NCBI GenBank assembly: GCA_030765065.1
Contig: CM060979.1
Location: 109,790,350-109,854,349 of the forward strand
Source of the DNA: Deroplatys truncata
Lineage: Eukaryota > Arthropoda > Insecta > Mantodea > Mantidae
Direction: 5' to 3'
Length of the DNA: 64,000 nucleotides
A program made the translations under genes and the position numbers. Positions 25,346 to 61,485 of the stretch are shown piece by piece (position 1 is the first letter of the stretch; each line of letters opens with the position of its first letter). The notes under the pieces were generated by a model, which worked only from the letters and a program-made list of their open reading frames with translations, made no database searches and was not told where the DNA came from.

Positions 25346-27281
25346 GTGGTGCTAGTCACAAAATATCCTCCTTGGGTCGAGGTGAGAGAGGTATCCGCCT
25401 CTTACCATGTCATTGTCATAGTTATAGTTATTTTGACATTCAATATTAATTCTAAAATTCACACTCAATATTCCTATTTTAGCTTACCGGTACGCCGCAA
25501 TATTAAAGGTAACTGAGCCAGTTATACAGGCATACGTTGGTGGTGTAAGGTATAACTTATCTTCGAAACGGGATTCGTCCTAGTGTACCGATCCTTGCCG
25601 GTTTACTTTGGCAACGATTTGTTCTCCGAGCTGCAGCTATAAACAGTGTGATTTAACATTAAGTTTGTTTTACTTGTAGGCCATTGTCTAATCTGACTAG
25701 CAAAGATGACACAGATACGTCTTCAGTTCGGGTATTGTCCTAAGTTTACACACGGTATTTGTAGTTCTATTCGTTTAAAACATGAGATGTTCACCATTTA
25801 CTCTTACTTTACGGTGAATTACTTCTTATGCTTAAATAGTGAGTTAAATGGTGCTTTACAATGTTTCAATTGTATGAGAACCTATGGTTGAAAGTAAACT
25901 AGTGTATACTTTGTAAAGGTATTCTTCTTTGTATTCAGTGCGATAAAAGAATGAACCCCTAGCATAAACGCAGGGCCAATCTGATGTCTCTGAGAAGTAT
26001 TTTATTACTACATTTCCAATTTTAGATTCTTGCTTACTCAAGTAATATATTAATTTTATGTAATACTTTGCATATATTATTTCGTTTAACAATTTGTTGT
26101 TACACAAAGTGTCTGTGTTCACCTTTAAAACATCTATGTTTACCTTTTTGTCTTTGTAGAGTACCTTCCAACAAATTCCTTGGTAACCGCTGAGATAAAT
26201 GAAGGAATAAATAAATGTGTAATAAATCAATGCCGAGCAAAGACTAGACGTCAAAACCGAAATTTTGCTTTAATATTAGGAATTTATCAGTTTTTATTAG
26301 TGTTCAAAACAGATAATATTTTATACAATCCACTGCCGACCAAATAAGAAAGAATGGAAAACGAGAAAATCAGTACTAAAACTTAGGCCTGCCTCGTGCT
26401 ATCCCCAGCGACAGTTAGATCAAGACGGTGCAGAAATTATATCCCTAAAAAGCGTCAGTTTTCCTTTTCAGTTTTGTATTTGACCACAAACCTCCCAACT
26501 AATATGAATACAATAAACATATTGACAAGCAGTAAAATGCCTTTTATGAGTTGGGTTTAACCAGCGAGCCGAATTTGTGACAAAACCCGTAAGAAATAAG
26601 TCTGCTATTAGTGATAAAGCAAAGGAAACCACCTTGGTCCGTCGTCAGTAATAGTCTAAGGTTCATATGGTTTATATGACACATAAGCGGGTTCGGGGTA
26701 AACTTAAGTACTAGTCGGCTACGATATGACTGCGTGTCGTGGGAAGAGGGACTAAACGGTTACTAAACATGTGGACGGAGCATCGGAAGGAGAGGTAAAG
26801 AAAACATCCGCATTTTCGAGTTGCATTTACTAGCGAGGTTGAAGCCTGCAAATGTGCTACTGTTTTCATTGTGCGACTGTACATTTCCATATCGCCTTGC
26901 CCCTCTTTCCCCTCGGATCCCTAGCCGTGATTGTCAACAAAAAAAAAGTGGCGCCCTCCTCCAAGCTCATTCACATCCTGGCTGACTTGTAATTCACTCA
27001 AAATCTAAGTACTTCACCCTCTGTCTTCCCTTAGGTTCAGTGCAGTTCAGCCGTTATCAGTACTGTCGCTAAATGAGAAACGGCCTAAGTTTTATAGTGA
27101 TGTTGTTGCCTTTAACCTTACTTTGTTATTTGTTCGATTGTACAGCAACGTGTTGTACAATACTGTTTAAATAACAAGCATGCTCATTTAGTAATACTTT
27201 CTAACTTGTCATTTTACAGAATATATAGACATAGAAGTTATATTAGAATTGGTAATCTATGATGAGAAGCCTAAAACAAAT
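25346..27281. other. Intergenic DNA left of the giant palindrome
   Basis: A 132-codon AT-rich open frame on the minus strand (25856-26254) has no recognisable domain; its composition (many Tyr, Ile, Lys, Asn) fits chance. Nothing else identifiable. Confidence 0.5.
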
Positions 27282-28142
27282 TATATAAGTAGAAAATAAA
27301 TGGCGACTCCAGCGCAAAGGATTTGCCGCCATCTGATAAGGTTCTTTGATCTATGCCGCTAGCCCCGCCCCCTCCCTTTGTGCGCTACTATTTGCCGCCC
27401 GGTCGCGTGCCGCTAGCCACGCCCCCTTCCCTTTGTGCGCTGATCTAATGCCGACAGTGTCTGTGCCGGCAGGTCCTCCCCCCTCCCCCATGCGTTCTAC
27501 TGTGGCGTCATGACTTGATGGAATTGTTTTCTCGAGTCCTGCCGCCCCTCGGCAAATTAATTAGGTAATGTTCGTCAAACATTTTTTTTATGATTACTAA
27601 GGTCTGCAGATTGCATCCTCGAGCAATTAAGTTTTTTGATTAATGAATTGTTGACTGGAGCTTGAGTATAAGTAGTCTGCTCACGGGAACAGTCTGTCAT
27701 GTAATGAAACACTGCAGCCTTCTTCTTCTATCCGGGGAAGGCGCTTGTCCATTAGCTGAACATGTTAGACGCTTTCAACACATTAATAGGCTTTTAAGTT
27801 TACATTCTGGATCTGTTTACATACATTAGCGAACGACATACTTCCGCCCGGATGTAACGGTGACCTCTATTAGCTGAGACGCTTTCACCCCATTAGCGAA
27901 CAATGTCAGTAATTGTTTTCCTAAGTGCTATGCCCAACACTCAACACTTTAGATTTTAGCGATGGAAATGATATAAAAAGCAGCAGCTTCTCCAACGAGT
28001 TCCAAGTTGACCAGGATGGCCGGGTTCGAATTACAAATTCAGCTTCTAATAACTCAGAGACTAATTACGATAAAGACATCAAATAAAGTTTATTACATTA
28101 ATGTCATTAGATAGTTTCTTGTGAATGTATATTTGGGTACAT
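27282..28142 (+). repeat. Left terminal block of the palindrome
   Basis: The outer ~250 bases are GC-rich in otherwise AT-rich DNA and hold two direct copies of TGCCGCTAGCC plus a C-rich stretch and CCCTTTGTGCGCT (27354-27386 and 27408-27441). The inner end (about 28019-28140) already carries a diverged satellite subunit: GGGTTCGAATTAC, ACTCAGAGACTAATTACG, AAATAAAGTTTATTAC. The mirror block is 43281-44141. Confidence 0.75.
27972..27978 (+). promoter_or_regulatory. TATA-like box pointing into the arm
   Basis: TATAAAA followed by AGCAGCAGC reads inward, toward the satellite. The same motif is mirrored at 43445-43451, so a transcript started there would run toward the centre from each end. No start site evidence exists. 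Confidence 0.3.
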
Positions 28143-30308
28143 GGTGTCCAGGGTTCGAATACCGATAAAATGTAATTTAATTATAAATTTAATAACTCCT
28201 AAACTAATTAAGATAAAGACGTCAAATAAACTTTATTGCCTTTATGTTATTAGGTAGTATCTTGTGGAGATGTAATTAGATACCTGACGTTCTGGGTTCG
28301 AGCCTGATGCTTAAATCGTCATTATCTCAGAAACTAAGAGAGGTAGAGGAATTGACCAAAGCATGATTGATAGCTCCTATGATGGGTAAATAATACTGTA
28401 TATAATTTTTAATCAGTTGTCCTTATTTCGAATCCCGATCTTTCAATCACTTACTTATTTTTTCTCTATACTCTAGAATATGTCACTTAGATTGATGCTG
28501 TAACTGCATACACAACCTTTAAACATATCAAACTAATATTGTAAATAATTTTGTTTCTGGTGTCCAGGGTTCGAATACCGATAAAATGTAATTTAATTAT
28601 AAATTTAATAACTTCTAAACTAATTAAGATAAAGACGCCAAATAAACTTTATTGTCTTTATGTTATTAGGTACTATCTTGTGGATGTGTAATTAGATACC
28701 TGTCGTTCTGGGTTCGATCCTAATTTTAAATCGTCATTATCTCAGAAACTAAGAGAGGTAGACGAGTGAACCAAAGCATGATTGATAGCTCCTATGAGGT
28801 GTAATTAATACTGTATATAATTTTCAATCAGTTGTCCTTACTTCGAATACCGATCCTTCAATCACTTACTTATTTTTCTCTATACTCTAGAATATATCAC
28901 TTAGATTGATGCTGTAACTGTATACAGCACCTTTAAACATATCAAACTAATATTGTAAATAATTTTGTTTCTGGTGTCCAGGGTTCGAATACCGATAAAA
29001 TGTAATTTAATTATAAATTTAATAACTTCTAAACTAATTAAGATAAAGATGCCAAATAAACTTTATTGCCTTTATGTTATTAGCTAGTATCTTGTGGAGG
29101 TGTAATTAGATACCAGACGTTCTGGGTTCGAGCCTAATTTTAAATCGTCATTATCTCAGAAACTAAGAGAGGTAGAGGAGTTGACCAAAGCATGATTGAT
29201 AGCTCCTATGATGGGCAATTAATACTGTATATAATTTTCAATCAGTTGTCCTTACTTCGAAGCCCGATCTTTCAATCACTTACTTATTTTTTCTCTATAC
29301 TCTAGAATATATCACTTAGATTGATGCTGTAAATGCATACAGCACCCTTAAACATATCAAACTAATATTGTAAATAATTTTGTTTCTGGTGTCCAGGGTT
29401 CGAATACCGATAAAATGTAATTTAATTATAAATTTAATAACTCCTAAACTAATTAAGATAAAGACACCAAATAAACTTTATTGCGTTTATGTTATTAGGT
29501 AGTATCTTGTGGATGTGTAATTAGATACCTGAAGTTCTGGGTTCGAGCCTAATTTTAAATCGTCATTATCTCAGAAACTAAGAGAGGTAGAGGAGTTGAC
29601 CAAAGCATGATTGATAGCTCCTATGATGGGCAATTAATACTGTATATAATTTTCAATCAGTTATCCTTACTTCGAATCCCGATCTTTCAATCACTTACTT
29701 ATTTTTTCTATACTCTAGAATATATCACTTAGATTGATGCTGTAAATGTATACAACACCTTTAAACATATCAAACTAACATTGTAAATAATTTTGTTTCT
29801 GGTGTCCAGGGTTCGAATACCGATAAAATGTAATTTAATTATAAATTTAATAACTCCTAAACTAATTAAGATAAAGACGCCAAATAAACTTTATTGCGTT
29901 TATGTTACTAGGTAGTATCTTGTGAATGTGTAATTAGATACCTGACGTTCCGGGTTCGAGCCTAATGTTTAAATCGTCATTATCTCAGAAACTAAGAGAG
30001 GTAGAGGAATTGACCAAAGCATGATTGATAGCTCCTATGAGGGGCAATTAATACTGTATATAATTTTCAATCAGCTGTCCTTACTTCGAATCCCGATCTT
30101 TCAATCACTTACTTATTTTTCTCTACACTCTAGAATATATCACTTAGATTGATGCTGTAAATGCATACAGCACCCTTAAACATATCAAACTAATATTGTA
30201 AATAATATTGGTTCTGGTGTCCAGGGTTCGAATACCGATAAAATGTAATTTAATTATAAATTTAATAACTCCTAAACTAATTAAGATAAAGACACCAAAT
30301 AAACTGTT
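28143..30308 (+). repeat. ~415-bp satellite array, left arm, about 5.2 units
   Basis: Units begin GGTGTCCAGGGTTCGAATAC at 28143, 28559, 28973, 29388, 29801 and 30216 (spacing 413-416). Each unit is a higher-order repeat of three ~138-bp diverged subunits, each opening with a TTCGAA/TTCGAG motif (GGTTCGAATACC, GGGTTCGAGCC, CTTCGAATCCC). In two of them an ATCTCAGAAACTAA or ACTCCTAAACTAA block follows. Neighbouring units differ at a few percent of positions. No coding frame. Confidence 0.92.
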
Positions 30309-30311
30309 ATA

Positions 30312-30350
30312 GGGGAAAGGATGCTCTCCTGAAACATTAGGTCTCTAGAT
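30312..30350 (+). repeat. Module-boundary motif, copy 1 (left arm)
   Basis: GGGGAAAGGATGCTCTCCTG followed by AAACATTAG sits exactly between the 415-bp satellite and the 70-bp minisatellite. Related copies lie at 32672-32713, 32885-32910 and 32914-32945. Mirror: 40656-40694. Confidence 0.75.
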
Positions 30351-30925
30351 AGAAGTATTTATAGTGGAGAGATAGGGAATACCAGGGCTGATGCTAGGCT
30401 AGTCAGATGCTAAAGGAGGGAGGGATATGCTTTATACGAGAGAGATAGGGAACACAAGGAAAGATGCTATACTAAACAGGACTTGAAGGGTAGAATATGA
30501 GCGATATAGAAAACCGAGGAGAGGTATTAGGATAGGAGTTTTGAATGATGGAGTAGGCGTTTATATGCGAGAGATAGGGAATACGAGGGTCGATGCTAGG
30601 CTAGACGGTGTTGAATGAGGGAATGTATCTTATATGAGAGAGGTAGGGCAATATGAGGAGAAGTGCTAGGCTAGTCGGGAAGGTCTGAATGAGAGAGTAT
30701 ACGTCTATATGGGAAAATATAGGGAAAACGAAGGTAGGTGCTAGGTTGAGAGAGTCTTCAAGAAGGAAAATGCATTTATATGAGAGCGGTAGGGTATACG
30801 AGGAGAGGTGCTAGTCTAGACATGGTTTGAGGATTAGAGTATACGTTTATATGGGAGAAATATGGAAAACGGGAGAGATACAAGGATAGACAGAGATTGA
30901 AGGAGGAGGAATGTAGGTTTATACT
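30351..30925 (+). repeat. Degenerate ~70-bp minisatellite, left arm
   Basis: About eight units carry TTATATGAGAGAGATAGGGA, then a variable ATACGAGG, GATGCTAGGCTAGA and TTGAATGAGGGA. Units vary from about 62 to 75 bases and have diverged much more than the 415-bp units. Mirror copy: 40081-40655. Confidence 0.8.
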
Positions 30926-31378
30926 GTAATATAGAGAGTAATTCGATTATAAAACTTTTCTCATCCAGCCTTACAACACTTTTATATACTTAATTTCTAA
31001 ACCTTACAAACTTTATATTTGTTAAACAGTAGTGCGCGAGACGGAGAGGGACAAACAGTATATCGGTTTACAGTGAAGTATACGTCCTAACCCATTCCCA
31101 CCTTGTTTGTTCTGGATCTTCTCATTGTCTATCATCTAACGTAACCACGTAACAAGACGTAACACAGGAAATCATACATATGGCACATTAAAAAAAATAA
31201 AGGTATATATAATGAAAAATAAACAAGTAGACAGAGGGTCATCGATACATAGAAAACCAGGAGTTGTATGTACTGAGACCATAGATTAGTATAGGCAAAC
31301 AACAAAGAAGTGAATTTATAGTGTAAATAGCCTAATATTTTCAAATATTATTATAGTCTAAAAGTATATAACTTAATT
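30926..31378. other. Unique arm sequence, left
   Basis: A hydrophobic 70-codon minus-strand frame (31132-31344) is open here but is broken by a one-base homopolymer change in the other arm, so it is not supported as a gene. Confidence 0.5.
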
Positions 31379-31666
31379 ATGTATCGAGTATTGAGAAATA
31401 AACGTTATTCATTATTCACTAATCTCAGATCACTGCAATTGTATTGCATCAATTCACAATTGCTAATGCCATTCAACTTTCATTCGTCTCTGATACATAA
31501 AGAAATTGCAAAATGGAGAAGGACGAAAGTAATAAAAAGACTCAGGCAGCAAATTTTAAGAAAGAAGAGAAAGATATATGACCGACATTGTTTTGGAACA
31601 CAAATTAGTGTTGAAAATAAAATGACTGATAGCTCTGCTAAGCGTAAGGAAGAGACATGGAAATAA
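31379..31666 (+). CDS. Small basic protein of unknown function (left arm copy)
   Basis: This 95-codon open frame encodes a basic protein; the middle (about residues 45-66) is Lys/Arg-rich (EIAKWRRTKVIKRLRQQ and RKKRKIYDRH), a plausible nucleic-acid-binding or nuclear-targeting stretch. No family is recognised. The TAA stop overlaps an AATAAA poly(A) signal (31662-31667), a compact 3' end. It converges with the 31858-32531 gene pair, about 190 bases apart. The mirror copy at 39340-39627 has the same protein sequence. Whether it is translated is uncertain; it could be an exon piece or chance. Confidence 0.4.
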   Translation: MYRVLRNKRYSLFTNLRSLQLYCINSQLLMPFNFHSSLIHKEIAKWRRTKVIKRLRQQILRKKRKIYDRHCFGTQISVENKMTDSSAKRKEETWK

Positions 31667-31857
31667 ATTGCAAATGAATACAATTCTAGGTTAGAAAAAA
31701 GAAGATAAACAACATTCATGTAAACCAATTTTTAAAAATCAGTTTAACTGAATACATGTAAAAAAACATATCACTTTACAAAAAGTAATGCAGACAACAT
31801 TTATTTTTTATAAACATTATCCTATTACATTCCTTTACAAAAAACCATACATATTTC

Positions 31858-32067
31858 CTAAAGGCAAAGGTGATAGTCTAGACATTCTAAACACTCAGTT
31901 ATATAATCATATACATCACGCAGAAAGAGACCTGCATTATCAGTAAAAAAACTAAACATCTCAACAATGTCTGAATGATGTATTTTATAAGTACAAGTTT
32001 TTTGATATTTCAAAGCTCCTGTTAACCATGGCAGTAATTGATTAACACAATTTCTCGATCCTGTCAT
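31858..32067 (-). CDS. 69-aa ORF overlapping the zinc-finger ORF (left arm copy)
   Basis: It starts in an ATGA overlap with the stop of the preceding 155-codon ORF, in another frame, so it could be made by termination-reinitiation or be a frameshifted continuation of one ancestral protein. It encodes an acidic, Cys-containing protein (DVYDYITECLECLDYHLCL at its end). No family is recognised. A poly(A) signal lies about 55 bases past the stop (31800-31805, minus strand). Identical in the other arm at 38939-39148. Confidence 0.4.
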   Translation of the reverse strand: MTGSRNCVNQLLPWLTGALKYQKTCTYKIHHSDIVEMFSFFTDNAGLFLRDVYDYITECLECLDYHLCL

Positions 32068-32531
32068 GCTATAACTTTAGATGCTTTCAGCTTACTTATA
32101 ATTTCCTCAATCTCTTGTGTGTGACTATTATTACCAACGTCCCTCGAAGCAATAAGTAACCTCAATATATTTACTAGTCTATTTGGATTTTCAAGCGTTG
32201 ATATCACTGAATCATCATCATATGAAGATTTCATATTCTCGCAACTTCCGATGTATCCAGATTTTTCACCAACAGTAGTCTCCAGTGAAGGACAGAGGCT
32301 TGATCCGGTATAACATTCCCCTCTATACATCTTCGGATCTTCAAGTGCAGGTGAGAGAGTCGATTCAGTATAACATATTGCTCTATGAAACTTAAATCTT
32401 GACAAAGAACGATTCTTAAAAATCCGCCCGCATACACAGCATCTAATAACGCGTTTTCCTTCATGTGTAATGTATGAAAAATCGAGTTTCTCATTCGTCA
32501 GTTGCACAGATTTTCTCGGGCAGTAGCTCAT
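32064..32531 (-). CDS. 155-aa C2HC (BED-like) zinc-finger ORF (left arm copy)
   Basis: This is the longest non-repetitive ORF of the arm. Residues 31-53 contain C-x2-C-x14-H-x3-C (CCVCGRIF followed by FKFHRAIC), a pattern like BED-type or related C2HC DNA-binding fingers used by transposases and host factors. Two similar Cys-containing segments follow (ICYTESTLSPALED and ECYTGSSLCPSLE, about residues 52-86), suggesting an internal duplication. The C-terminal 45 residues look helical. The start is the first ATG after an in-frame stop, and the stop overlaps the next ORF. Function is unknown; no transposase catalytic domain was found. Confidence 0.5.
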   Translation of the reverse strand: MSYCPRKSVQLTNEKLDFSYITHEGKRVIRCCVCGRIFKNRSLSRFKFHRAICYTESTLSPALEDPKMYRGECYTGSSLCPSLETTVGEKSGYIGSCENMKSSYDDDSVISTLENPNRLVNILRLLIASRDVGNNSHTQEIEEIISKLKASKVIA

Positions 32532-32671
32532 GCTAAAACTAAAAGAAATTAAATGAATACGTGAATGCTAACGCTCGAAGGAATTAAAAGCGAATGAATG
32601 AATTCATAACACGCACCTATGTATATATCCAGGATGAGGATGACGGAGGGAATTGCGATCAATGCATAGCA

Positions 32672-32713
32672 GGGGGAAAGGATACTCTCTTGAAACATTA
32701 GTCATCTAGACAA
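32672..32713 (+). repeat. Module-boundary motif, copy 2 (left arm)
   Basis: GGGGGAAAGGATACTCTCTT followed by GAAACATTAG and TCTAGACAAC closely matches 30312-30350 and bounds the gene block on its inner side. Mirror: 38293-38334. Confidence 0.75.
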
Positions 32714-32884
32714 CTATTGTTCACGGAGACCGTAGACGTCAGGTTGAATGGGACAGACCTCAGGTTCAAATCTTTAAGGGTACGGACCCCCGCCTTTTGC
32801 CTGTCATGTATACTAAACCATCCTAACAGCGTAACATTACGTTACAACGACACGTAACCAGAACATGGCGAGTGCGAGCATGGA

Positions 32885-32945
32885 AAAAAAGGATGCTCTC
32901 TGGGAACATTCGTGAAAAGGGATGCTCTCTGGAAACAGTCGCCAT
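32885..32945 (+). repeat. Module-boundary motif, copies 3 and 4 (left arm)
   Basis: GGATGCTCTCTGGGAACATT and GGGATGCTCTCTGGAAACAG lie 30 bases apart, directly before the 135-bp duplication. Mirror: about 38061-38121. Confidence 0.75.
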
Positions 32946-32958
32946 CCACACAACGGAT

Positions 32959-33228
32959 TGTCCCTAACATTTCCAGATTTCGAACCGTTCAACATCGTGA
33001 CGCGCTCCTGTCATCTACATTTCAACGAAATTTTACCTCCTGAATTAAAGTATGGTGCTCTGTATAGAACTGCACAACTTTCATTACGCTGCGTGTCCCT
33101 AGCGTTTCCAGCTCCCGAATCGTTCCAGCTAGTGGAATGTCTCTACCATCTTCATGTCAACGATCTGTTACTCTGAATTAAAGTTTGGTGATCTGTATAG
33201 ACCTGTACAACAAGCATTACGCTATGTA
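32959..33228 (+). repeat. 135-bp tandem duplication (left arm)
   Basis: Two diverged copies start TGTCCCTA at 32959 and 33094 and share CGAACCGTTC/CGAATCGTTC, CTGAATTAAAGT and TCTGTATAGA, ending CATTACGCTATG. That last string continues straight into the 21-bp array, so the array probably arose from the end of this unit. The 84-codon frame here has no support. Mirror: 37778-38047. Confidence 0.8.
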
Positions 33229-35907
33229 ACAGCCTCATCACGCTATGTAACAACATGATCACGCTATGTAACAACATGTTCACGATATGTAACAACATGA
33301 TCACGCTATGTAACAATACGATCAAGCTATGTAACAACATGATCACGCTATGTAACAACATGATCACGCTATGTAACAACATGATCACGCTATGTAACAA
33401 CCTGAGCACGCTATGTAACAACACGATCACGCTATGTAACAACATGATCACGCTATGTAACAACCTGATCACGCTATGTAACAACATGATCACGCTATGT
33501 AACAACCTGAGTACGCTATGTAACAACATGATCACGCCATGTAACAACTGATCACGCTATGTAACAACTGATCACGCTATGTAACAACATGATCACGCTA
33601 TGTAACAACATGAGCACGCTATGTAACAACCTGATCACGCTATGTAACAACATGTTCACGATATGTAACAACATGATCACGCTATGTAACAATACGATCA
33701 AGCTATGTAACAACATGATCACGCTATGTAACAACATGATCACGCTATGTAACAACATGAACACGCTATGTAACAACCTGAGCACGCTATGTAACAACAC
33801 GATCACGCTATGTAACAACATGATCACGCTATGTAACAACCTGATCACGCTATGTAACAACATGATCACTCTATGTAATAACATGAACACGCTATGTAAC
33901 AACATGTTCACGCTATGTAACATCTGATCACGCTATGTAACAACATGATCACGCTATGTAACAACATGAGCGCGCTATGTAACAACCTGATCACGCTATG
34001 TAACAACTGATCACGCTATGTAACAACATGAACACGCTATGTAACAACATGATCACGCTATGTAACAACACGATCACGCTATGTAACAACATGATCACGC
34101 TAAGTAACAACCTGATCACGCTATGTAACAACATGATCACGCTATGTAACAACCTGAGTACGCTATGTAACAACATGATCACGCCATGTAACAACTGATC
34201 ACGCTATGTAACAACATGCTCAAGCTATGTAACAACTGATCACCCTACGTAACAACATGATCACGCTATGTAACAACCTGAGCACGCTATGTAACAACCT
34301 GATCACGCTATGTAACAACTGATCACGCTATGTAACAACCTGATTACGCTATGTAACAACATGATCACGCTATGTAACAACATGTTCACGCTATGTAACA
34401 ACATGATCACGCTATGTAACAACATGATCAGGCTATGTAACAAAACGATCACCCTATGTAACAACCTGAGCACGCTCTGTAACAACACGATCACGCTATG
34501 TAACAACATGTTCACGCTATGTAACAACATGATCACGCTATGTAACAACTGATCACGCTATGTAACAACATGTTCACGCTATGTAACAACATGATCACGC
34601 TATGTCACAACCTGAGCGCGCTATGTAACAACGTGATCACGCTATGTAACAAGTGATCACGCTATGTAACAACCTGATTACGCTATGTAACAACTGATCA
34701 CGCTATGTAACAACCTGAGCACGCTATGTAACAACATGAGCACGCTATGTAACAATACGATCACGCTATGTAACAACCTGATCACGCTATGTAACAACCT
34801 GATTACGCTATGTAACAACTGATCACGCTATGTAACAACATGATCACGCTATGTAACAACCTGAGCACGCTATGTAACAACATGATCACGCTATGTAACA
34901 ACATGAACACGCTATGTAACAATACGATCACGCTATGTAACAATCTGAGCACGCTATGTAACAACATGATCACGCTATGTAACAACATGAACACGCTATG
35001 TAACAACCTGAGCACGCTATGTAACAACCTGATCACGCTATGTAACAACATGTTCACGCTATGTAACAACACGATCACGCTATGTAACAACACGATCACG
35101 CTATGTAACAACCTGATTACGCTATGTAACAACTGATCACGCTATGTAACAACATGATCACGCTATGTAACAACCTGAGCACGCTATGTAACAACATGAT
35201 CACGCTATGTAACAACCTGATCACGCTATGTAACAACAGGTTCACGCTATGTAACAACCTGAGCACGCTATGTAACAACATGATCACGCTATGTAACAAC
35301 CTGAGCACGCTGTGTAACAACATGATCACGCTATGTAGCAACATGTTCACGCTATGTAACAACACGATCACGCTATGTAACAACACGATCACGCTATGTA
35401 ACAACATGGACACGCTATGTAACAACATGAACACGCTAAGTAACAATACGATCAAGCTATGTAACAACCTGAGCACGCTATGTAACAACATGATCACGCC
35501 ATGTAACAACATGAACACGCTATGTAACAACCTGAGCACGCTATGTAACAACATGATCACTCTATGTAATAACATGAACACGCTATATAGCAACATGATC
35601 ACGCTATGTAACAACCTGAGCACGCTATGTAACAACATGATCACGCTATGTAACAACATGATCACGCTATGTAACAACACGATCACGCTATGTAACAACA
35701 CGATCACGCTATGTAACAACCTGATCACGCCATGTAACAACATGTTCACGCTATGTAACAACATGATCACGCTATGTAACAACCTGATCACGCTATGTAA
35801 CAACCTGATCACGCTATGTAACAACGCGATCACGCTATGTAACAACATGATCACGCTATGTAACAATCTGATCACACTATGTAACAACATGATCACGCTA
35901 TGTAAAT
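33214..35907 (+). repeat. 21-bp minisatellite, left arm, ~2.7 kb
   Basis: About 125-130 units of consensus ATCACGCTATGTAACAACNTG with a variable four-base spot (ATGA, CTGA, CACGA, ATGT). Occasional 19-bp units change frame. Because 21 is a multiple of three and the unit has few stops, both strands show long artificial frames. The right-arm array is 1166 bases shorter. Confidence 0.95.
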
Positions 35908-36264
35908 AGGGTGGACCATTTATGTTGAGGCTATACAATATATCCAAAACTAAGCGTTGTAGAAAGAAATGTCTTTAATAAAACTTGTTTGATATTATTG
36001 CGAAAGTAAATGCCGCTAGTCGTATTTCGTTTGGAGGACGTTGTGATGGTCATTTCAGGGTCTTTTTAAATGGGACCCTAATTGTAGGTTCCCATTTAAA
36101 AAAATAAATTGACCCAAAATGACCCTCATAACGGCCTCCAAACGAAACACGACTAGCGGCATTTACTTTAGTCATAATATCAATCAAGTTTTATTAAAGA
36201 CATTTCTTTCTACAACGCTTAGTTTTGGATATATTGTATAGCCTCAACTTAAATGGTCCACCCT
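35908..36264. repeat. Central core and hairpin of the palindrome
   Basis: The two sides of the core carry TGCCGCTAGTCGTATTTCG (left) and its near-complement (right), then GGTCATTTCAGGGTC against GGTCATTTTGGGTC. The very centre (36062-36101) is a short hairpin: TTTTTAAATGGGA, an 11- to 14-base loop, TCCCATTTAAAAA. The inner ~110 bases of the two sides differ at about ten places, far more than the outer arms. Confidence 0.85.
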
Positions 36265-37792
36265 ATTTACATAGCGTGATCATGTTGTTACATAGTGTGA
36301 TCAGATTGTTACATAGCGTGATCATGTTGTTACATAGCGTGATCGCGTTGTTACATAGCGTGATCAGGTTGTTACATAGCGTGATCAGGTTGTTACATAG
36401 CGTGATCATGTTGTTACATAGCGTGAACATGTTGTTACATGGCGTGATCAGGTTGTTACATAGCGTGATCGTGTTGTTACATAGCGTGATCGTGTTGTTA
36501 CATAGCGTGATCATGTTGTTACATAGCGTGATCATGTTGTTACATAGCGTGCTCAGGTTGTTACATAGCGTGATCATGTTGCTATATAGCGTGTTCATGT
36601 TATTACATAGAGTGATCATGTTGTTACATAGCGTGCTCAGGTTGTTACATAGCGTGTTCATGTTGTTACATGGCGTGATCATGTTGTTACATAGCGTGCT
36701 CAGGTTGTTACATAGCTTGATCGTATTGTTACATAGCGTGTTCATGTTGTTACATAGCGTGTCCATGTTGTTACATAGCGTGATCGTGTTGTTACATAGC
36801 GTGATCGTGTTGTTACATAGCGTGAACATGTTGCTACATAGCGTGATCATGTTGTTACACAGCGTGCTCAGGTTGTTACATAGCGTGATCATGTTGTTAC
36901 ATAGCGTGCTCAGGTTGTTACATAGCGTGCTCAGGTTGTTACATAGCGTGATCAGGTTGTTACATAGCGTGATCATGTTGTTAAATAGCGTGCTCAGGTT
37001 GTTACATAGCGTGATCATGTTGTTACATAGCGTGATCAGTTGTTACATAGCGTAATCAGGTTGTTACATAGCGTGATCGTGTTGTTACATAGCGTGATCG
37101 TGTTGTTACATAGCGTGAACATGTTGTTACATAGCGTGATCAGGTTGTTACATAGCGTGCTCAGGTTGTTACATAGCGTGTTCATGTTGTTACATAGCGT
37201 GATCATGTTGTTACATAGCGTGCTCAGATTGTTACATAGCGTGATCGTATTGTTACATAGCATGTTCATGTTGTTACATAGAGTGATCATGTTGTTACAT
37301 AGCGTGAACATGTTGTTACATAGCGTGAACATGTTGTTACATAGCGTGATCGTGTTGTTACAGAGCGTGCTCAGGTTGTTACATAGCGTGATCGTTTTGT
37401 TACATAGCTTGATCATGTTGTTACATAGCGTGATCATGTTGTTACATAGCGCGAACATGTTGTTACATAGCGTGGTCATGTTGTTACATAGCGTAATCAA
37501 GTTGTTACATAGCGTGATCAGTTGTTACATAGCGTGATCAGGTTGTTACATAGCGTGCTCATGTTGTTACATAGCGTGATCATGTTGTTACATAGCGTGC
37601 TCAGGTTGTTACATAGCGTGTTCATGTTGTTACATAGCGTGATCATGTTGTTACATAGCGTGATCATGTTGTTACATAGCTTGATCGTATTGTTACATAG
37701 CGTGATCATGTTGTTACATATCGTGAACATGTTGTTACATAGCGTGATCATGTTGTTACATAGCGTGATGAGGCTGTTACATAGCGTAATGC
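36265..37792 (-). repeat. 21-bp minisatellite, right arm, ~1.5 kb
   Basis: Reverse complement of the left array, about 70-75 units. The inner ~800 bases keep the same order of variant units as the left arm, while the outer part differs by loss or gain of blocks. Confidence 0.95.
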
Positions 37793-38047
37793 TTGTTGTA
37801 CAGGTCTATACAGATCACCAAACTTTAATTCAGAGTAACAGATCGTTGACATGAAGATGGTAGAGACATTCCACTAGCTGGAACGATTCGGGAGCTGGAA
37901 ACGCTAGGGACACGCAGCGTAATGAAAGTTGTGCAGTTCTATACAGAGCACCATACTTTAATTCAGGAGGTAAAATTTCGTTGAAATGTAGATGACAGGA
38001 GCGCGTCACGATGTTGAACGGTTCGAAATCTGGAAATGTTAGGGACA
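37778..38047 (-). repeat. 135-bp tandem duplication (right arm)
   Basis: Mirror of 32959-33228 with the same two diverged copies. Confidence 0.8.
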
Positions 38048-38292
38048 ATCCGTTGTGTGGATGGCGACTGTTTCCAGAGAGCATCCCTTTTCACGAATGT
38101 TCCCAGAGAGCATCCTTTTTTTCCATGCTCGCACTCGCCATGTTCTGGTTACGTGTCGTTGTAACGTAATGTTACGCTGTTAGGATGGTTTAGTATACAT
38201 GACAGGCAAAAGGCGGGGGTCCGTACCCTTAAAGATTTGAACCTGAGGTCTGTCCCATTCAACCTGACGTCTACGGTCTCCGTGAACAATAG

Positions 38293-38334
38293 TTGTCTAG
38301 ATGACTAATGTTTCAAGAGAGTATCCTTTCCCCC
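38293..38334 (-). repeat. Module-boundary motif (right arm)
   Basis: Mirror of 32672-32713; two further copies lie at about 38061-38121. Confidence 0.72.
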
Positions 38335-38474
38335 TGCTATGCATTGATCGCAATTCCCTCCGTCATCCTCATCCTGGATATATACATAGGTGCGTGTTAT
38401 GAATTCATTCATTCGCTTTTAATTCCTTCGAGCGTTAGCATTCACGTATTCATTTAATTTCTTTTAGTTTTAGC

Positions 38475-38942
38475 ATGAGCTACTGCCCGAGAAAATCTGT
38501 GCAACTGACGAATGAGAAACTCGATTTTTCATACATTACACATGAAGGAAAACGCGTTATTAGATGCTGTGTATGCGGGCGGATTTTTAAGAATCGTTCT
38601 TTGTCAAGATTTAAGTTTCATAGAGCAATATGTTATACTGAATCGACTCTCTCACCTGCACTTGAAGATCCGAAGATGTATAGAGGGGAATGTTATACCG
38701 GATCAAGCCTCTGTCCTTCACTGGAGACTACTGTTGGTGAAAAATCTGGATACATCGGAAGTTGCGAGAATATGAAATCTTCATATGATGATGATTCAGT
38801 GATATCAACGCTTGAAAATCCAAATAGACTAGTAAATATATTGAGGTTACTTATTGCTTCGAGGGACGTTGGTAATAATAGTCACACACAAGAGATTGAG
38901 GAAATTATAAGTAAGCTGAAAGCATCTAAAGTTATAGCATGA
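38475..38942 (+). CDS. 155-aa C2HC (BED-like) zinc-finger ORF (right arm copy)
   Basis: The protein is identical to that at 32064-32531, with the C-x2-C-x14-H-x3-C finger at residues 31-53. The ATG follows a pyrimidine-rich TTTAATTTCTTTTAGTTTTAG, which could instead be a splice acceptor (TTTTAG), making this an internal or last exon. Its stop shares ATGA with the next ORF at 38939. Identity of both copies may reflect arm-to-arm conversion rather than selection. Confidence 0.5.
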   Translation: MSYCPRKSVQLTNEKLDFSYITHEGKRVIRCCVCGRIFKNRSLSRFKFHRAICYTESTLSPALEDPKMYRGECYTGSSLCPSLETTVGEKSGYIGSCENMKSSYDDDSVISTLENPNRLVNILRLLIASRDVGNNSHTQEIEEIISKLKASKVIA

Positions 38943-39148
38943 CAGGATCGAGAAATTGTGTTAATCAATTACTGCCATGGTTAACAGGAGCTTTGAAATA
39001 TCAAAAAACTTGTACTTATAAAATACATCATTCAGACATTGTTGAGATGTTTAGTTTTTTTACTGATAATGCAGGTCTCTTTCTGCGTGATGTATATGAT
39101 TATATAACTGAGTGTTTAGAATGTCTAGACTATCACCTTTGCCTTTAG
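38939..39148 (+). CDS. 69-aa ORF overlapping the zinc-finger ORF (right arm copy)
   Basis: Identical to 31858-32067. It starts at the ATGA overlap and is followed by AATAAA at 39201-39206. No family is recognised. Confidence 0.4.
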   Translation: MTGSRNCVNQLLPWLTGALKYQKTCTYKIHHSDIVEMFSFFTDNAGLFLRDVYDYITECLECLDYHLCL

Positions 39149-39200
39149 GAAATATGTATGGTTTTTTGTAAAGGAATGTAATAGGATAATGTTTATAAAA

Positions 39201-39206
39201 AATAAA
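39201..39206 (+). terminator. Poly(A) signal of the zinc-finger/69-aa unit
   Basis: AATAAA 53 bases past the stop of the 69-codon ORF; the mirror signal is at 31800-31805 (minus strand). Confidence 0.5.
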
Positions 39207-39339
39207 TGTTGTCTGCATTACTTTTTGTAAAGTGATATGTTTTTTTACATGTATTCAGTTAAACTGATTTTTAAAAATTGGTTTACATGAATGTTGTTTA
39301 TCTTCTTTTTTCTAACCTAGAATTGTATTCATTTGCAAT

Positions 39340-39627
39340 TTATTTCCATGTCTCTTCCTTACGCTTAGCAGAGCTATCAGTCATTTTATTTTCAACACTA
39401 ATTTGTGTTCCAAAACAATGTCGGTCATATATCTTTCTCTTCTTTCTTAAAATTTGCTGCCTGAGTCTTTTTATTACTTTCGTCCTTCTCCATTTTGCAA
39501 TTTCTTTATGTATCAGAGACGAATGAAAGTTGAATGGCATTAGCAATTGTGAATTGATGCAATACAATTGCAGTGATCTGAGATTAGTGAATAATGAATA
39601 ACGTTTATTTCTCAATACTCGATACAT
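39340..39627 (-). CDS. Small basic protein of unknown function (right arm copy)
   Basis: Same protein as 31379-31666: 95 codons, Lys/Arg-rich centre, stop codon inside AATAAA. It converges with 38475-39148. No family is recognised. Confidence 0.4.
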   Translation of the reverse strand: MYRVLRNKRYSLFTNLRSLQLYCINSQLLMPFNFHSSLIHKEIAKWRRTKVIKRLRQQILRKKRKIYDRHCFGTQISVENKMTDSSAKRKEETWK

Positions 39628-40080
39628 AATTAAGTTATATACTTTTAGACTATAATAATATTTGAAAATATTAGGCTATTTACACTATAAATTCACTTCT
39701 TTGTTGTTTGCCTATACTAATCTATGGTCCCAGTACATACAACTCCTGGTTTTCTATGTATCGATGACCCTCTGTCTACTTGTTTATGTTTCATTATATA
39801 TACCTTTATTTTTTTTTAATGTGCCATATGTATGATTTCCTGTGTTACGTCTTGTTACGTGGTTACGTTAGATGATAGACAATGAGAAGATCCAGAACAA
39901 ACAAGGTGGGAATGGGTTAGGACGTATACTTCACTGTAAACCGATATACTGTTTGTCCCTCTCCGTCTCGCGCACTACTGTTTAACAAATATAAAGTTTG
40001 TAAGGTTTAGAAATTAAGTATATAAAAGTGTTGTAAGGCTGGATGAGAAAAGTTTTATAATCGAATTACTCTCTATATTA

Positions 40081-40655
40081 CAGTATAAACCTACATTCCT
40101 CCTCCTTCAATCTCTGTCTATCCTTGTATCTCTCCCGTTTTCCATATTTCTCCCATATAAACGTATACTCTAATCCTCAAACCATGTCTAGACTAGCACC
40201 TCTCCTCGTATACCCTACCGCTCTCATATAAATGCATTTTCCTTCTTGAAGACTCTCTCAACCTAGCACCTACCTTCGTTTTCCCTATATTTTCCCATAT
40301 AGACGTATACTCTCTCATTCAGACCTTCCCGACTAGCCTAGCACTTCTCCTCATATTGCCCTACCTCTCTCATATAAGATACATTCCCTCATTCAACACC
40401 GTCTAGCCTAGCATCGACCCTCGTATTCCCTATCTCTCGCATATAAACGCCTACTCCATCATTCAAAACTCCTATCCTAATACCTCTCCTCGGTTTTCTA
40501 TATCGCTCATATTCTACCCTTCAAGTCCTGTTTAGTATAGCATCTTTCCTTGTGTTCCCTATCTCTCTCGTATAAAGCATATCCCTCCCTCCTTTAGCAT
40601 CTGACTAGCCTAGCATCAGCCCTGGTATTCCCTATCTCTCCACTATAAATACTTC
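40081..40655 (-). repeat. Degenerate ~70-bp minisatellite, right arm
   Basis: Mirror of 30351-30925, with the same irregular units in the same order. Confidence 0.8.
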
Positions 40656-40694
40656 TATCTAGAGACCTAATGTTTCAGGAGAGCATCCTTTCCC
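40656..40694 (-). repeat. Module-boundary motif between minisatellite and satellite (right arm)
   Basis: Mirror of 30312-30350, reading CAGGAGAGCATCCTTTCCCC on the plus strand. Confidence 0.72.
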
Positions 40695-40697
40695 CTA

Positions 40698-43280
40698 TAA
40701 AAGTTTATTTGGTGTCTTTATCTTAATTAGTTTAGGAGTTATTAAATTTATAATTAAATTACATTTTATCGGTATTCGAACCCTGGACACCAGAACCAAT
40801 ATTATTTACAATATTAGTTTGATATGTTTAAGGGTGCTGTATGCATTTACAGCATCAATCTAAGTGATATATTCTAGAGTGTAGAGAAAAATAAGTAAGT
40901 GATTGAAAGATCGGGATTCGAAGTAAGGACAGCTGATTGAAAATTATATACAGTATTAATTGCCCCTCATAGGAGCTATCAATCATGCTTTGGTCAATTC
41001 CTCTACCTCTCTTAGTTTCTGAGATAATGACGATTTAAACATTAGGCTCGAACCCGGAACGTCAGGTATCTAATTACACATTCACAAGATACTACCTAGT
41101 AACATAAACGCAATAAAGTTTATTTGGCGTCTTTATCTTAATTAGTTTAGGAGTTATTAAATTTATAATTAAATTACATTTTATCGGTATTCGAACCCTG
41201 GACACCAGAAACAAAATTATTTACAATGTTAGTTTGATATGTTTAAAGGTGTTGTATACATTTACAGCATCAATCTAAGTGATATATTCTAGAGTATAGA
41301 AAAAATAAGTAAGTGATTGAAAGATCGGGATTCGAAGTAAGGATAACTGATTGAAAATTATATACAGTATTAATTGCCCATCATAGGAGCTATCAATCAT
41401 GCTTTGGTCAACTCCTCTACCTCTCTTAGTTTCTGAGATAATGACGATTTAAAATTAGGCTCGAACCCAGAACTTCAGGTATCTAATTACACATCCACAA
41501 GATACTACCTAATAACATAAACGCAATAAAGTTTATTTGGTGTCTTTATCTTAATTAGTTTAGGAGTTATTAAATTTATAATTAAATTACATTTTATCGG
41601 TATTCGAACCCTGGACACCAGAAACAAAATTATTTACAATATTAGTTTGATATGTTTAAGGGTGCTGTATGCATTTACAGCATCAATCTAAGTGATATAT
41701 TCTAGAGTATAGAGAAAAAATAAGTAAGTGATTGAAAGATCGGGCTTCGAAGTAAGGACAACTGATTGAAAATTATATACAGTATTAATTGCCCATCATA
41801 GGAGCTATCAATCATGCTTTGGTCAACTCCTCTACCTCTCTTAGTTTCTGAGATAATGACGATTTAAAATTAGGCTCGAACCCAGAACGTCTGGTATCTA
41901 ATTACACCTCCACAAGATACTAGCTAATAACATAAAGGCAATAAAGTTTATTTGGCATCTTTATCTTAATTAGTTTAGAAGTTATTAAATTTATAATTAA
42001 ATTACATTTTATCGGTATTCGAACCCTGGACACCAGAAACAAAATTATTTACAATATTAGTTTGATATGTTTAAAGGTGCTGTATACAGTTACAGCATCA
42101 ATCTAAGTGATATATTCTAGAGTATAGAGAAAAATAAGTAAGTGATTGAAGGATCGGTATTCGAAGTAAGGACAACTGATTGAAAATTATATACAGTATT
42201 AATTACACCTCATAGGAGCTATCAATCATGCTTTGGTTCACTCGTCTACCTCTCTTAGTTTCTGAGATAATGACGATTTAAAATTAGGATCGAACCCAGA
42301 ACGACAGGTATCTAATTACACATCCACAAGATAGTACCTAATAACATAAAGACAATAAAGTTTATTTGGCGTCTTTATCTTAATTAGTTTAGAAGTTATT
42401 AAATTTATAATTAAATTACATTTTATCGGTATTCGAACCCTGGACACCAGAAACAAAATTATTTACAATATTAGTTTGATATGTTTAAAGGTTGTGTATG
42501 CAGTTACAGCATCAATCTAAGTGACATATTCTAGAGTATAGAGAAAAAATAAGTAAGTGATTGAAAGATCGGGATTCGAAATAAGGACAACTGATTAAAA
42601 ATTATATACAGTATTATTTACCCATCATAGGAGCTATCAATCATGCTTTGGTCAATTCCTCTACCTCTCTTAGTTTCTGAGATAATGACGATTTAAGCAT
42701 CAGGCTCGAACCCAGAACGTCAGGTATCTAATTACATCTCCACAAGATACTACCTAATAACATAAAGGCAATAAAGTTTATTTGACGTCTTTATCTTAAT
42801 TAGTTTAGGAGTTATTAAATTTATAATTAAATTACATTTTATCGGTATTCGAACCCTGGACACCAGAAACAAAATTATTTACAATATTAGTTTGATATGT
42901 TTAAAGGTTGTGTATGCAGTTACAGCATCAATCTAAGTGACATATTCTAGAGTATAGAGAAAAAATAAGTAAGTGATTGAAAGATCGGGATTCGAAATAA
43001 GGACAACTGATTAAAAATTATATACAGTATTATTTACCCATCATAGGAGCTATCAATCATGCTTTGGTCAATTCCTCTACCTCTCTTAGTTTCTGAGATA
43101 ATGACGATTTAAGCATCAGGCTCGAACCCAGAACGTCAGGTATCTAATTACATCTCCACTAGATACTACCTAATAACATAAAGGCAATAAAGTTTATTTG
43201 ACGTCTTTATCTTAATTAGTTTAGGAGTTATTAAATTTATAATTAAATTACATTTTATCGGTATTCGAACCCTGGACACC
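40698..43280 (-). repeat. ~415-bp satellite array, right arm, about 6.2 units
   Basis: Same units as 28143-30308 but with one more copy. The extra unit is evident as two adjacent, nearly identical units (about 42360-42780 and 42780-43200) that share AAAGGTTGTGTATGCAGTTA, against a single such unit in the left arm. This is the simplest source of the 417-base difference. Confidence 0.92.
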
Positions 43281-44141
43281 ATGTACCCAAATATACATTC
43301 ACAAGAAACTATCTAATGACATTAATGTAATAAACTTTATTTGATGTCTTTATCGTAATTAGTCTCTGAGTTATTAGAAGCTGAATTTGTAATTCGAACC
43401 CGGCCATCCTGGTCAACTTGGAACTCGTTGGAGAAGCTGCTGCTTTTTATATCATTTCCATCGCTAAAATCTAAAGTGTTGAGTGTTGGGCATAGCACTT
43501 AGGAAAACAATTACTGACATTGTTCGCTAATGGGGTGAAAGCGTCTCAGCTAATAGAGGTCACCGTTACATCCGGGCGGAAGTATGTCGTTCGCTAATGT
43601 ATGTAAACAGATCCAGAATGTAAACTTAAAAGCCTATTAATGTGTTGAAAGCGTCTAACATGTTCAGCTAATGGACAAGCGCCTTCCCCGGATAGAAGAA
43701 GAAGGCTGCAGTGTTTCATTACATGACAGACTGTTCCCGTGAGCAGACTACTTATACTCAAGCTCCAGTCAACAATTCATTAATCAAAAAACTTAATTGC
43801 TCGAGGATGCAATCTGCAGACCTTAGTAATCATAAAAAAAATGTTTGACGAACATTACCTAATTAATTTGCCGAGGGGCGGCAGGACTCGAGAAAACAAT
43901 TCCATCAAGTCATGACGCCACAGTAGAACGCATGGGGGAGGGGGGAGGACCTGCCGGCACAGACACTGTCGGCATTAGATCAGCGCACAAAGGGAAGGGG
44001 GCGTGGCTAGCGGCACGCGACCGGGCGGCAAATAGTAGCGCACAAAGGGAGGGGGCGGGGCTAGCGGCATAGATCAAAGAACCTTATCAGATGGCGGCAA
44101 ATCCTTTGCGCTGGAGTCGCCATTTATTTTCTACTTATATA
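43281..44141 (-). repeat. Right terminal block of the palindrome
   Basis: Mirror of 27282-28142, including the two GC-rich AGCGCACAAAGGGA-containing copies near 43982 and 44036 and the outer edge CTACTTATATA ending at 44141. Confidence 0.75.
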
Positions 44142-45208
44142 CATTGCGGCAATTATTTTAATTGTATAAATAAAGAATTTTTGGTTTGTTTTCATATTTT
44201 TCTGTTTTGATGCTATAATACTGTTATACAAAACATATATTACCTTCAGCAAGTAACGCTTACGATAGTCAGATTTCTGATAATCTGATTTGAATAAACA
44301 TTCAAGCTTTTAAACAAGCTCTGCTGAACATTCTAAAACTGTACATATATTATGGCTTTTCACTTTTCAACAATATAACAGTCCCTGAGTTCTCTTCTGT
44401 GTACCCTTTCTAGGTTGGACAATTATTATTCAAAAACATTGAGACATGCAACATAAATTATTTTTCGAAATGCTTGTATCCTTTTATATACTTTAAATCA
44501 CAACTCTGTTTGCTTTGGCTTTACATGAATACTCAGAGAACAGTCTTTACAACGAATGCACCAGATGACATGCAGCATCAACCAGTTTAGATGCATACAA
44601 AAACATCTCGCTGCTCTACTACGTGCGAGATAGCAATATAAACTGTATAAGCTGCAGCTACCCCGCGGGACTATGCCCAGACTTCTCTATTTGTGAAACA
44701 TGCCCTACTCTGTTACAATATCATATGTTACAATATTAATGCGTGCCCCGGAACTACCGGCTTTATGCGACATACGCTTAGACTAACTTCCGAGCTCAAC
44801 CAAAGTTACACAGGCTAGAATAATGGACAAGCATTTCAATGCGTTAAAAGTTCAGAATGCGTGGCCCCTGGAGTCCTTTTGAGTAAAATAATTGGCCTCT
44901 CCAGCGAAGTAGTGCGTATACATGCCTGACAGTACATTGCCCATTAAATGCCCTAATATCAAGCTTTAGGGACATTTAAATTTCCATGCATAACAAACAT
45001 TATTGCTCTAAAATAGGGCAATGACTCCATATTTCGTCCCCCCCTTCCTAATTACTCCCTTCTCTCTTTCTTCTGACAAAACGTTTTGATAGGGACAAGC
45101 CTTGCTACTACCCTTAGAAGAGACGCCAATTAACAATCGCCAAGGATCCCGGCCTAGGACAACAGCCTTTAATTAAGCATGCAACAGACTCAGGTCAGTA
45201 GATTTACT
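44142..45208. other. Intergenic DNA right of the palindrome
   Basis: AT-rich, no gene or known repeat recognised. Confidence 0.45.
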
Positions 45209-60964: not shown

Positions 60965-61413
60965 CTATGCAGCTGTCGGCTGGCTCACGACCCATGGCGA
61001 CCAAGTGTAGTTGAACTTGGCAGGATCAGCATTTACGACGTCATAAGGCTCGTGCAACTGCTGCACTAAAGTGCTCTCATACTTCTTCAGTAACGTTTTG
61101 AGATATGCAGCCTGTTCCGGATACACATAGGCGAGGTCCTCCCATTCACAAGGATCAGACTTGAGGTTGAACAGGCAGGGATGATCTGGGTTGGCTACCG
61201 TATCACACTTTGTGGCATAGGTCCCAAGCTTTTTGCAAGTGACAGTCCCAGCAGAGCGCAGGGCCAGTATTTCATCTTCTTCTAGACTGGAATAACTTGC
61301 CAGGGCTTCACCAGCGTCGCTGTGAACAACTGCAGAAACATTGTAGGCAGGATAGGTTGGTGACGATCCAGGATCTCCCTCATGATTGTCTAGGGTTCCG
61401 TTCAGGTTGTTTC
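60965..61413 (-). CDS. Arylsulfatase B-like protein, last exon
   Basis: This exon encodes the C-terminal ~149 residues of an insect arylsulfatase B/J-type lysosomal or secreted sulfatase, which removes sulfate esters from glycosaminoglycans or related sulfated substrates. Diagnostic sequence is PCLFNLKSDPCEWEDLA (the conserved NxxxDPxE-L motif of sulfatase C-terminal subdomains), then YPEQAAYLKTLLKKYESTLV and ADPAKFNYTWSPW to the stop. The catalytic Cys/formylglycine region is on upstream exons outside or beyond this window. The exon begins at a clean acceptor TACTGTTTCAG/GAAAC (phase 1), so the upstream ATG at 61435 is intronic. The frame is intact and followed by a poly(A) signal, so the gene is probably functional. 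Confidence 0.9.
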
Positions 61414-61432
61414 CTGAAACAGTATGAGGAGT

Positions 61433-61441
61433 CATTATTAA

Positions 61442-61477
<36 letters not shown>

Positions 61478-61485
61478 TATTATTA
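61433..61485. repeat. (ATT)n microsatellite
   Basis: About 17 ATT/ACT units in the intron just upstream of the sulfatase last exon. Confidence 0.95.

Follow-up and report, generated by a model that had tools for sequence, protein, structure and literature searches.

A probable palindromic satellite of Polinton/Maverick elements in the genome of the mantis Deroplatys truncata

What kind of sequence forms a palindrome of almost 17 kb, and how have its two arms come to be nearly identical? This question is raised by a locus in a window of 64,000 nucleotides (the whole stretch of DNA that was analysed) from the mantis Deroplatys truncata (assembly GCA_030765065.1, contig CM060979.1, positions 109,790,350 to 109,854,349 of the forward strand; coordinates given below without a prefix are those of the window). 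A self-comparison of the window showed reverse-complement arms at 27279-44145, and the element proper comprises positions 27288..44135 (16,848 bp). Since it belongs to a large family of palindromes with 6-bp target-site duplications and AGTAG ends, and since its ends are nearly identical to those of some Polintons carrying PolB, the element is interpreted, with a probability of about 0.78, as a giant non-autonomous mobile element and a satellite of the Polinton/Maverick elements of the same genome. We know of no earlier palindromic Polinton satellite preserved in a germline genome.

Relatives of the palindrome and their ends

Copies were searched for in the window's own 4.29-Gb genome. With a 1-kb element end as the query, 42 matches (the best 40 of 4117 candidates) were obtained, which comprise 19 plus/minus pairs 12-20 kb apart (the window included), 2 unpaired ends and 2 short internal matches. 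The window and 10 of the other 18 pairs were taken whole. All of these 11 palindromes have inverted arms and lengths of 12.2-17.9 kb, all carry AGTAG at both ends (AGTAG...CTACT), and all (11/11) are flanked by a perfect 6-bp target-site duplication, the sequence of which varies by locus. Based on these duplications, the window element is mobile. Its own duplication reads TATATA (27282..27287 on the left, 44136..44141 on the right), so that the end is ambiguous from one copy; a duplication of TA or TATA, an idea from the window copy alone, was ruled out by the other copies, which fixed the element end.

The size of the family was estimated with ORF1, one of three open reading frames (ORFs) considered in each arm. 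A 30-mer of ORF1, which occurs once per arm and was present in 21/21 arms, was counted 675 times in forward and 680 times in reverse orientation at up to 2 mismatches, compared to 0 for a reversed control. The first 100 matches listed, which are all exact, group into 45 inverted pairs with 10 left single, and by extrapolation the family would comprise roughly 680-750 loci. In a search with the ORF1 protein, the best 150 of 7084 candidates were all 97-100% identical, of full length and free of stops, a set that is biased toward intact copies as the best-scoring one; of these, 118 can be joined into 59 minus/plus pairs, and neighbours within 25 kb showed no other orientation. At one locus, a PolB match and a palindrome ORF1 match lie 20 kb apart (C7:119352215 and 119372453).

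The outermost ~205 bp of the window element (27288..27492 on the plus strand, mirrored at 43931..44135 on the minus strand) are the part common to the Polinton ends that were read. This part is variable among copies and the same or nearly the same at both ends of one copy. Two end variants were followed by exact matching, namely V1 (20 bp) and the one that the window itself carries (23 bp). V1 occurs 89 times per strand and the window variant 18 and 14 times on the two strands, with a control of 0 in both cases. Among the matches listed, 14 paired ends with the window variant (8-20 kb apart) enclose a close relative of the Polinton PolB in at least 6 cases and ORF1 in at least 3, with 5 left unassigned. 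When 20 of the V1 pairs listed were probed 1.15 kb inside the end, the 415-bp satellite of the palindromes was found in 12/20. From the remaining 8, 3 were assigned to a palindromic subfamily with a different block at this point (one by internal and mirrored pieces, one by arm k-mers, one by probe similarity alone) and 5 to Polintons (3 contain PolB by coordinates, 2 by probe similarity alone); L058, L052 and L062 were assigned solely through the similarity of one 301-bp probe. A grouping of the V1-ended elements L044, L048, L055 and L058 as one palindromic subfamily was given up, since L048 sits in a PolB element and was reassigned. The subterminal block of this PolB element (C1:222408452) is 85% identical to the palindromic subfamily, so that exchange may extend past the outer ends.

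The genome contains at least 147 PolB relatives (the best 147 of 15651 candidates). In one Polinton (C7:63908010-63928481, target-site duplication ATGGAG), the pieces read matched DNA_pol_B_2 (PF03175, 8.6e-12), a DJR-like (double-jelly-roll) capsid domain (PF21738, 6.6e-81) and a phospholipase-A2-like domain (5.9e-13). A 6-bp duplication was found for 10/10 further palindrome or Polinton end pairs (6/6 and 4/4). The palindrome ends align with the ends of four V1 Polintons over ~205 bp and are unrelated further inward. When compared to these palindrome and Polinton ends, the window end shows 13-37 differences in alignments of 202-205 sites that contain at most 6 gap columns. Two of the PolB elements with the window variant, for which the left ends were compared, are far closer to the window than the palindromes are to each other in this part (14.6%, 205 columns): over the first 280 bp, the left end of C2:33245600 differs at one site (a one-base deletion, through which the last column is also gapped) and that of C14:31541830 at two sites. 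The two ends of C2:33245600 itself differ by an indel (106/280 identical ungapped), and the homology of the two ends of C14:31541830 to the window element extends to positions 363 and 616, respectively. From the near-identical ends and this extent of homology, it appears that ends move between Polintons and palindromes by exchange. PolB elements with matched ends measure ~16-21 kb, compared to 12.2-17.9 kb for the palindromes.

Other PolB matches were rejected as partners, since in the upstream pieces of four of them neither an element end nor a significant similarity to the palindrome was detected; the partners were instead identified through the end patterns. A second PolB group (L031-L034, L040 and others) comprises near-identical copies with open frames of ~1280 amino acids (aa) and upstream pieces unlike the palindrome. 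Two PolB matches on C4 (11089823, minus; 11105705, plus) are oppositely oriented at a distance of 16 kb and perhaps belong to two different elements. The short sequences L035-L039 (558-572 bp) carry the V1 motif at both ends, with the motif inside a larger inverted repeat in 4/5 cases, and resemble a palindrome end on one side.

Inverted repeats were also observed at PolB. By eye, two PolB pairs among the 147 matches are inverted and ~2 kb apart, and for the pair on C2 the 1.8-kb piece spanning the interval is an inverted repeat of 1774 bp (98%) with an apex of ~25 bases. The element at C7:194382491-194400179, a PolB Polinton with V1 ends and the duplication GCCACT, contains two inverted stretches of 313 bp (99.7% identical) that are separated by a spacer of 889 bp. 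This Polinton is at least partly palindromic, which suggests that such structures arise in the Polinton system.

Identity of the two arms

In the terminal block (27288..28141 on the plus strand in the left arm of the window), the mean difference is 0.11% between the arms within a copy, compared to 4.2% between copies (11 copies). This contrast was reached in 0/10,000 shuffles, the own other arm was the nearest sequence in 22/22 cases, and 9/11 copies show 0-1 arm differences over the 0.85 kb of the block. For the outer 205 columns, 0.27% within a copy stand against 14.6% between copies, and further in the values are 0.06% and 1.1%. The gene module, determined for 10 copies with both arms, showed 0.19% within and 1.3-1.5% between copies (again 0/10,000 shuffles), with 47/55 arm differences private to one copy. 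The copy nearest by the gene module is not the one nearest by the terminal block, with 0.17% against 5.30% for the window and copy C1. Recombinant arms therefore appear in both halves together, and both arms seem to be replaced together. In a count of the 21-bp repeat units per arm, the arms are equal or nearly equal in some copies (110/110, 104/105, 122/121, 104/106).

The centre of the window element (35906..36266) is a 361-bp imperfect inverted repeat and forms the apex of the palindrome. An alignment of nine copies showed that the left-right asymmetry lies mostly in its inner part (~120 bp), where a 7-bp indel and four adjoining substitutions recur in 9/9 copies and other sites in most of them. 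At the periphery, scattered differences are private, and some lineage-specific changes are found on both sides.

Apparently the arms were made identical at or near insertion. The element probably moves through borrowed Polinton machinery, and as the shared ends suggest, Polinton proteins would recognise the palindrome ends and carry out both the replication and the integration of the element. If replication is extrachromosomal, protein-primed and proceeds by strand displacement, the strand set free could pair with itself as a hairpin whose stem measures up to ~8 kb. Arm differences would be corrected in this hairpin, or one arm would serve as the template for the other. Its apex, being unpaired, would escape correction and keep its old asymmetry. 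The pattern at the apex is what could be expected of correction in a long hairpin with an unpaired tip; conversion in the chromosome could also yield it. On balance, this hairpin route with an adenovirus-like intermediate is slightly favoured as the origin of arm identity and is considered likelier than chromosomal conversion.

Several observations weigh against a Polinton satellite with arms reset in a hairpin. Neither an intermediate of replication nor an event of transposition or a polymorphic insertion was seen. The palindrome copy C16b has an incomplete left arm without a centre match, and the centre of copy C12 is partial. In the gene module, the own other arm was the nearest in just 17/20 cases, and in copy C2 both alleles of 6/18 arm differences were found in other copies, which points to later exchange between elements. 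The number of 415-bp units differs between the arms in 5/11 copies, and the 21-bp counts are strongly unequal in the window (117/70), C14 (76/42), C12 (22/114) and C16b (0/71), with further unequal counts of 114/101, 96/125 and 121/131; a later contraction or an imperfect copying is therefore required. The small V1-ended elements, which are a different family, lack a 6-bp duplication at the motif (0/5). No integrase was recognised in unjoined pieces that amount to ~44% of one Polinton and contain some unscanned frames. The inverted PolB pair on C2 was read in a 1.8-kb piece with its ends outside, and for C7:194382491-194400179 a mirrored probe matched just 322/601 bp (98.8%). In view of the unread ends of the former and the partial mirroring of the latter, the hairpin route is rated just slightly above even odds.

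Modules and reading frames

An earlier note on this stretch, made from the sequence alone, had placed the palindrome at 27282-44141 and described two reverse-complement arms with the same module order and only rare differences. The palindrome is found there, except that these limits include the target-site duplication, which makes up the terminal 6 bp at either side, and the module order is present in both arms, although these are unequal in length (~8.6 kb on the left, ~7.9 kb on the right). Inward of the terminal block, the 415-bp satellite comprises 5.2 units in the left arm (28142..30310, plus strand) and 6.2 units in the right arm (40700..43281, minus strand). It is followed by a ~70-bp minisatellite (30345..30950, plus strand; copies detected to 30871, outer limit by eye), which was detected in part at 40136-40467 in the right arm. 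The 21-bp repeat array next to the centre holds ~129 units on the left (33207..35905, plus strand) and ~73 units on the right (36267..37799, minus strand). The arms of the window thus differ by one additional 415-bp unit on the right and a longer 21-bp array on the left. Outside the arrays and the centre, their alignment showed 2 substitutions and one 1-bp indel, so that the rarity of differences holds for the non-array sequence and not for the unit numbers; one further substitution lies at 30306, inside the 415-bp array.

By eye, the 415-bp units (28142-30310) seemingly consist of three diverged parts of ~138 bp, each starting near GGTTCGAATCC, which we take to be a tRNA B-box-like motif. A 27-bp motif GGAAAGGATGCTCTC..GAAACATTAG (repeat family D19) is repeated at the borders of the gene module (30314, 32675, 32886, 32915). 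Elsewhere in the window, a single tRNA-Val is predicted at 2383-2454, and an ORF at 60968-61498 (minus strand) matched the C-terminal part of arylsulfatase with a score below the threshold.

Of the convergent small genes proposed by the earlier note, ORF1 retains modest support, ORF2 little and the plus-strand ORF3 none. ORF1 (155 aa) lies at 32064..32531 on the minus strand of the left arm and has an identical translation at 38475..38942 on the plus strand of the right arm. Its length was matched in 3/1000 shuffles, and its variation comprises 11 synonymous and 17 non-synonymous changes and 1 stop, corresponding to a ratio of non-synonymous to synonymous polymorphism (pN/pS) of 0.43 (28 sites and one stop). 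ORF1 is therefore likely coding, with a support that is modest, not strong. By a motif filter it was present in 19/21 arms. Its Cx2Cx14Hx3C pattern is BED-finger-like by eye alone, without Pfam support, and a possible splice-like intron was seen by eye in its 5' leader. ORF2 (69 aa; 31858..32067 on the minus strand, 38939..39148 on the plus strand) shares an ATGA at its start with the ORF1 stop, as in translationally coupled genes, and is followed by AATAAA at ~31800 (by eye). With 2 synonymous and 5 non-synonymous changes and 1 stop it shows little sign of coding, and by the motif filter it is absent from both arms of the palindrome copy C14. For the basic ORF3 (95 aa; 31379..31666 on the plus strand, 39340..39627 on the minus strand), coding is doubtful, with 0 synonymous and 9 non-synonymous changes and 1 stop.

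A comparison of the three ORFs with Pfam gave nothing above the cut-off; weak matches of ORF1/ORF2 to Utp13 and Vp24 stayed below it and were taken as chance. No match of ORF1 was found in the protein database, viral contigs or prokaryote genomes, and part of ORF1 together with ORF2 gave no significant match to solved structures. An AlphaFold model of ORF1 alone reached a mean predicted local distance difference test score (pLDDT) of 37 and was set aside. In the palindrome, no PolB, integrase, ATPase, protease or capsid gene was recognised, as far as the three scanned ORFs are concerned (longest non-array ORF 155 aa; other frames of up to 88 aa and array frames of up to 285 aa lay outside the Pfam scan). 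Since no Polinton core genes were recognised, the element is not an autonomous Polinton. As a guess, ORF1/ORF2 might act as a regulator or another nuclear protein of the satellite.

Alternative explanations and known systems

One alternative is compatible with the satellite identity. It assumes that the arms of the same satellite became alike after integration, through ordinary gene conversion between them in the chromosome, which is how sex-chromosome palindromes behave. Near-identical arms with a diverged centre would likewise be expected, and the arm alleles of copy C2 do occur elsewhere. However, 47 private one-arm differences persist in the gene module (10 copies), indicating that conversion after insertion is incomplete, while the 0-1 terminal-block differences of 9/11 copies look as if the arms were born identical, and a PolB Polinton without the interior of the palindrome family is also partly palindromic. 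Chromosomal conversion is thus regarded as possible, at clearly less than even odds. Long-read data can also create palindromes, as is generally known, by read-through of both strands of one molecule. Such an assembly artefact is contradicted by unrelated flanks on the two sides, by an asymmetric centre common to the copies and by unequal arrays; since independent palindromic copies have their own flanks and target-site duplications, chance and artefact are excluded in practice. The outcome of only one copy, which the earlier note had named as speaking against its reading, is likewise excluded, given roughly 700 relatives.

Regarding movement, an autonomous element of unknown kind, moving by ORF1/ORF2 and only recombining its ends with Polintons, would agree with the intact ORF1 in the best 150 of 7084 candidates (biased to intact copies) and with its pN/pS. 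This is considered improbable, since ORF1 and ORF2 comprise just 224 aa without a significant family match, neither arm of copy C14 yielded ORF2, and the Polinton-like ends and duplication length would be unexplained without Polinton proteins. The earlier note had proposed a new foldback-type mobile element, which can be retained for the form (long inverted repeats partly built from arrays) and for the mobility (6-bp duplications in 11/11), but not for an affinity to Foldback/Galileo. A nonautonomous cut-and-paste element of this type (Mutator or P superfamily) with expanded terminal repeats would explain long inverted repeats with tandem arrays and little coding sequence, and Galileo is known to lengthen its own repeats (PMC4168063). 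Its duplications of 7-8 bp given there are nevertheless at odds with 6 bp in 11/11 palindromes, and the ends common to PolB Polintons argue against it, leaving it very improbable.

The Polinton satellite resembles Polinton/Maverick elements in its 6-bp duplication, AG/AGT-type ends, comparable size and near-identical ends in the same genome. For vertebrate Mavericks, termini of (AG)3 or (AGT)2 and an intact length of 12.7-24.6 kb have been described (PMC8097293). Unlike these elements, the palindrome is almost wholly an inverted repeat, much of it tandem arrays, and no PolB, integrase, ATPase or capsid gene was recognised in its scanned ORFs. A palindromic or giant non-autonomous Polinton is not named in the listed titles and abstract starts of open-access papers (subscription papers and repeat databases being outside this scope, so that an earlier description is possible), and an open-access literature search for non-autonomous or miniature Polintons returned nothing. 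Drosophila Foldback and Galileo elements likewise show long inverted repeats with internal tandem arrays and few or no genes. The Drosophila Foldback (FB) duplication has 9 bp, compared to 6 bp in 11/11 palindromes, while arrays in the arms are common to both. Compared to Galileo, with duplications of 7-8 bp and, in D. willistoni, longest repeats of 4.2-4.7 kb (PMC4168063), the palindrome has a 6-bp duplication, different ends, a Polinton partner and longer arms. IS3EU/GingerRoot elements share the 6-bp duplications, but their termini are TA..TA or occasionally TG..CA (PMC10045372), unlike the AG..CT of the palindrome.

Altogether, these data suggest that the virus-like Polintons have non-autonomous parasites of very large size, with ends being exchanged between the two. 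Palindromic Polinton satellites may account for some of the long palindromes in animal genomes. To our knowledge, the replication and movement of animal Polintons have never been directly seen. In arm-reset palindromes with an asymmetric apex, a hairpin or panhandle intermediate may have left its natural trace, and the proposed adenovirus-like Polinton cycle becomes testable from ordinary sequence data. Snap-back defective interfering genomes of linear DNA viruses (adenovirus, adeno-associated virus (AAV)) are palindromic parasites of a replicating parent; an open-access literature search on them listed just one paper, which was unrelated. A satellite of this defective-interfering kind, which would form a self-complementary hairpin via the Polinton polymerase, be packaged in Polinton capsids, hold a Polinton-like length by its filler arrays and interfere with or exploit its helper by ORF1/ORF2, is a speculative and rather unlikely extension. 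For AAV, the repair of an incomplete terminal repeat via a panhandle has been mentioned (PMC11575299). The palindrome thus resembles snap-back genomes as a parasite of a parent, and the panhandle repair of inverted terminal repeats in that one repeat would be repaired from the other via an annealed single strand. Unlike the snap-back genomes of adenovirus and AAV, the palindrome, for which such a mechanism is inferred, is integrated in the germline, is present in hundreds of copies and carries its own ORFs and satellites.

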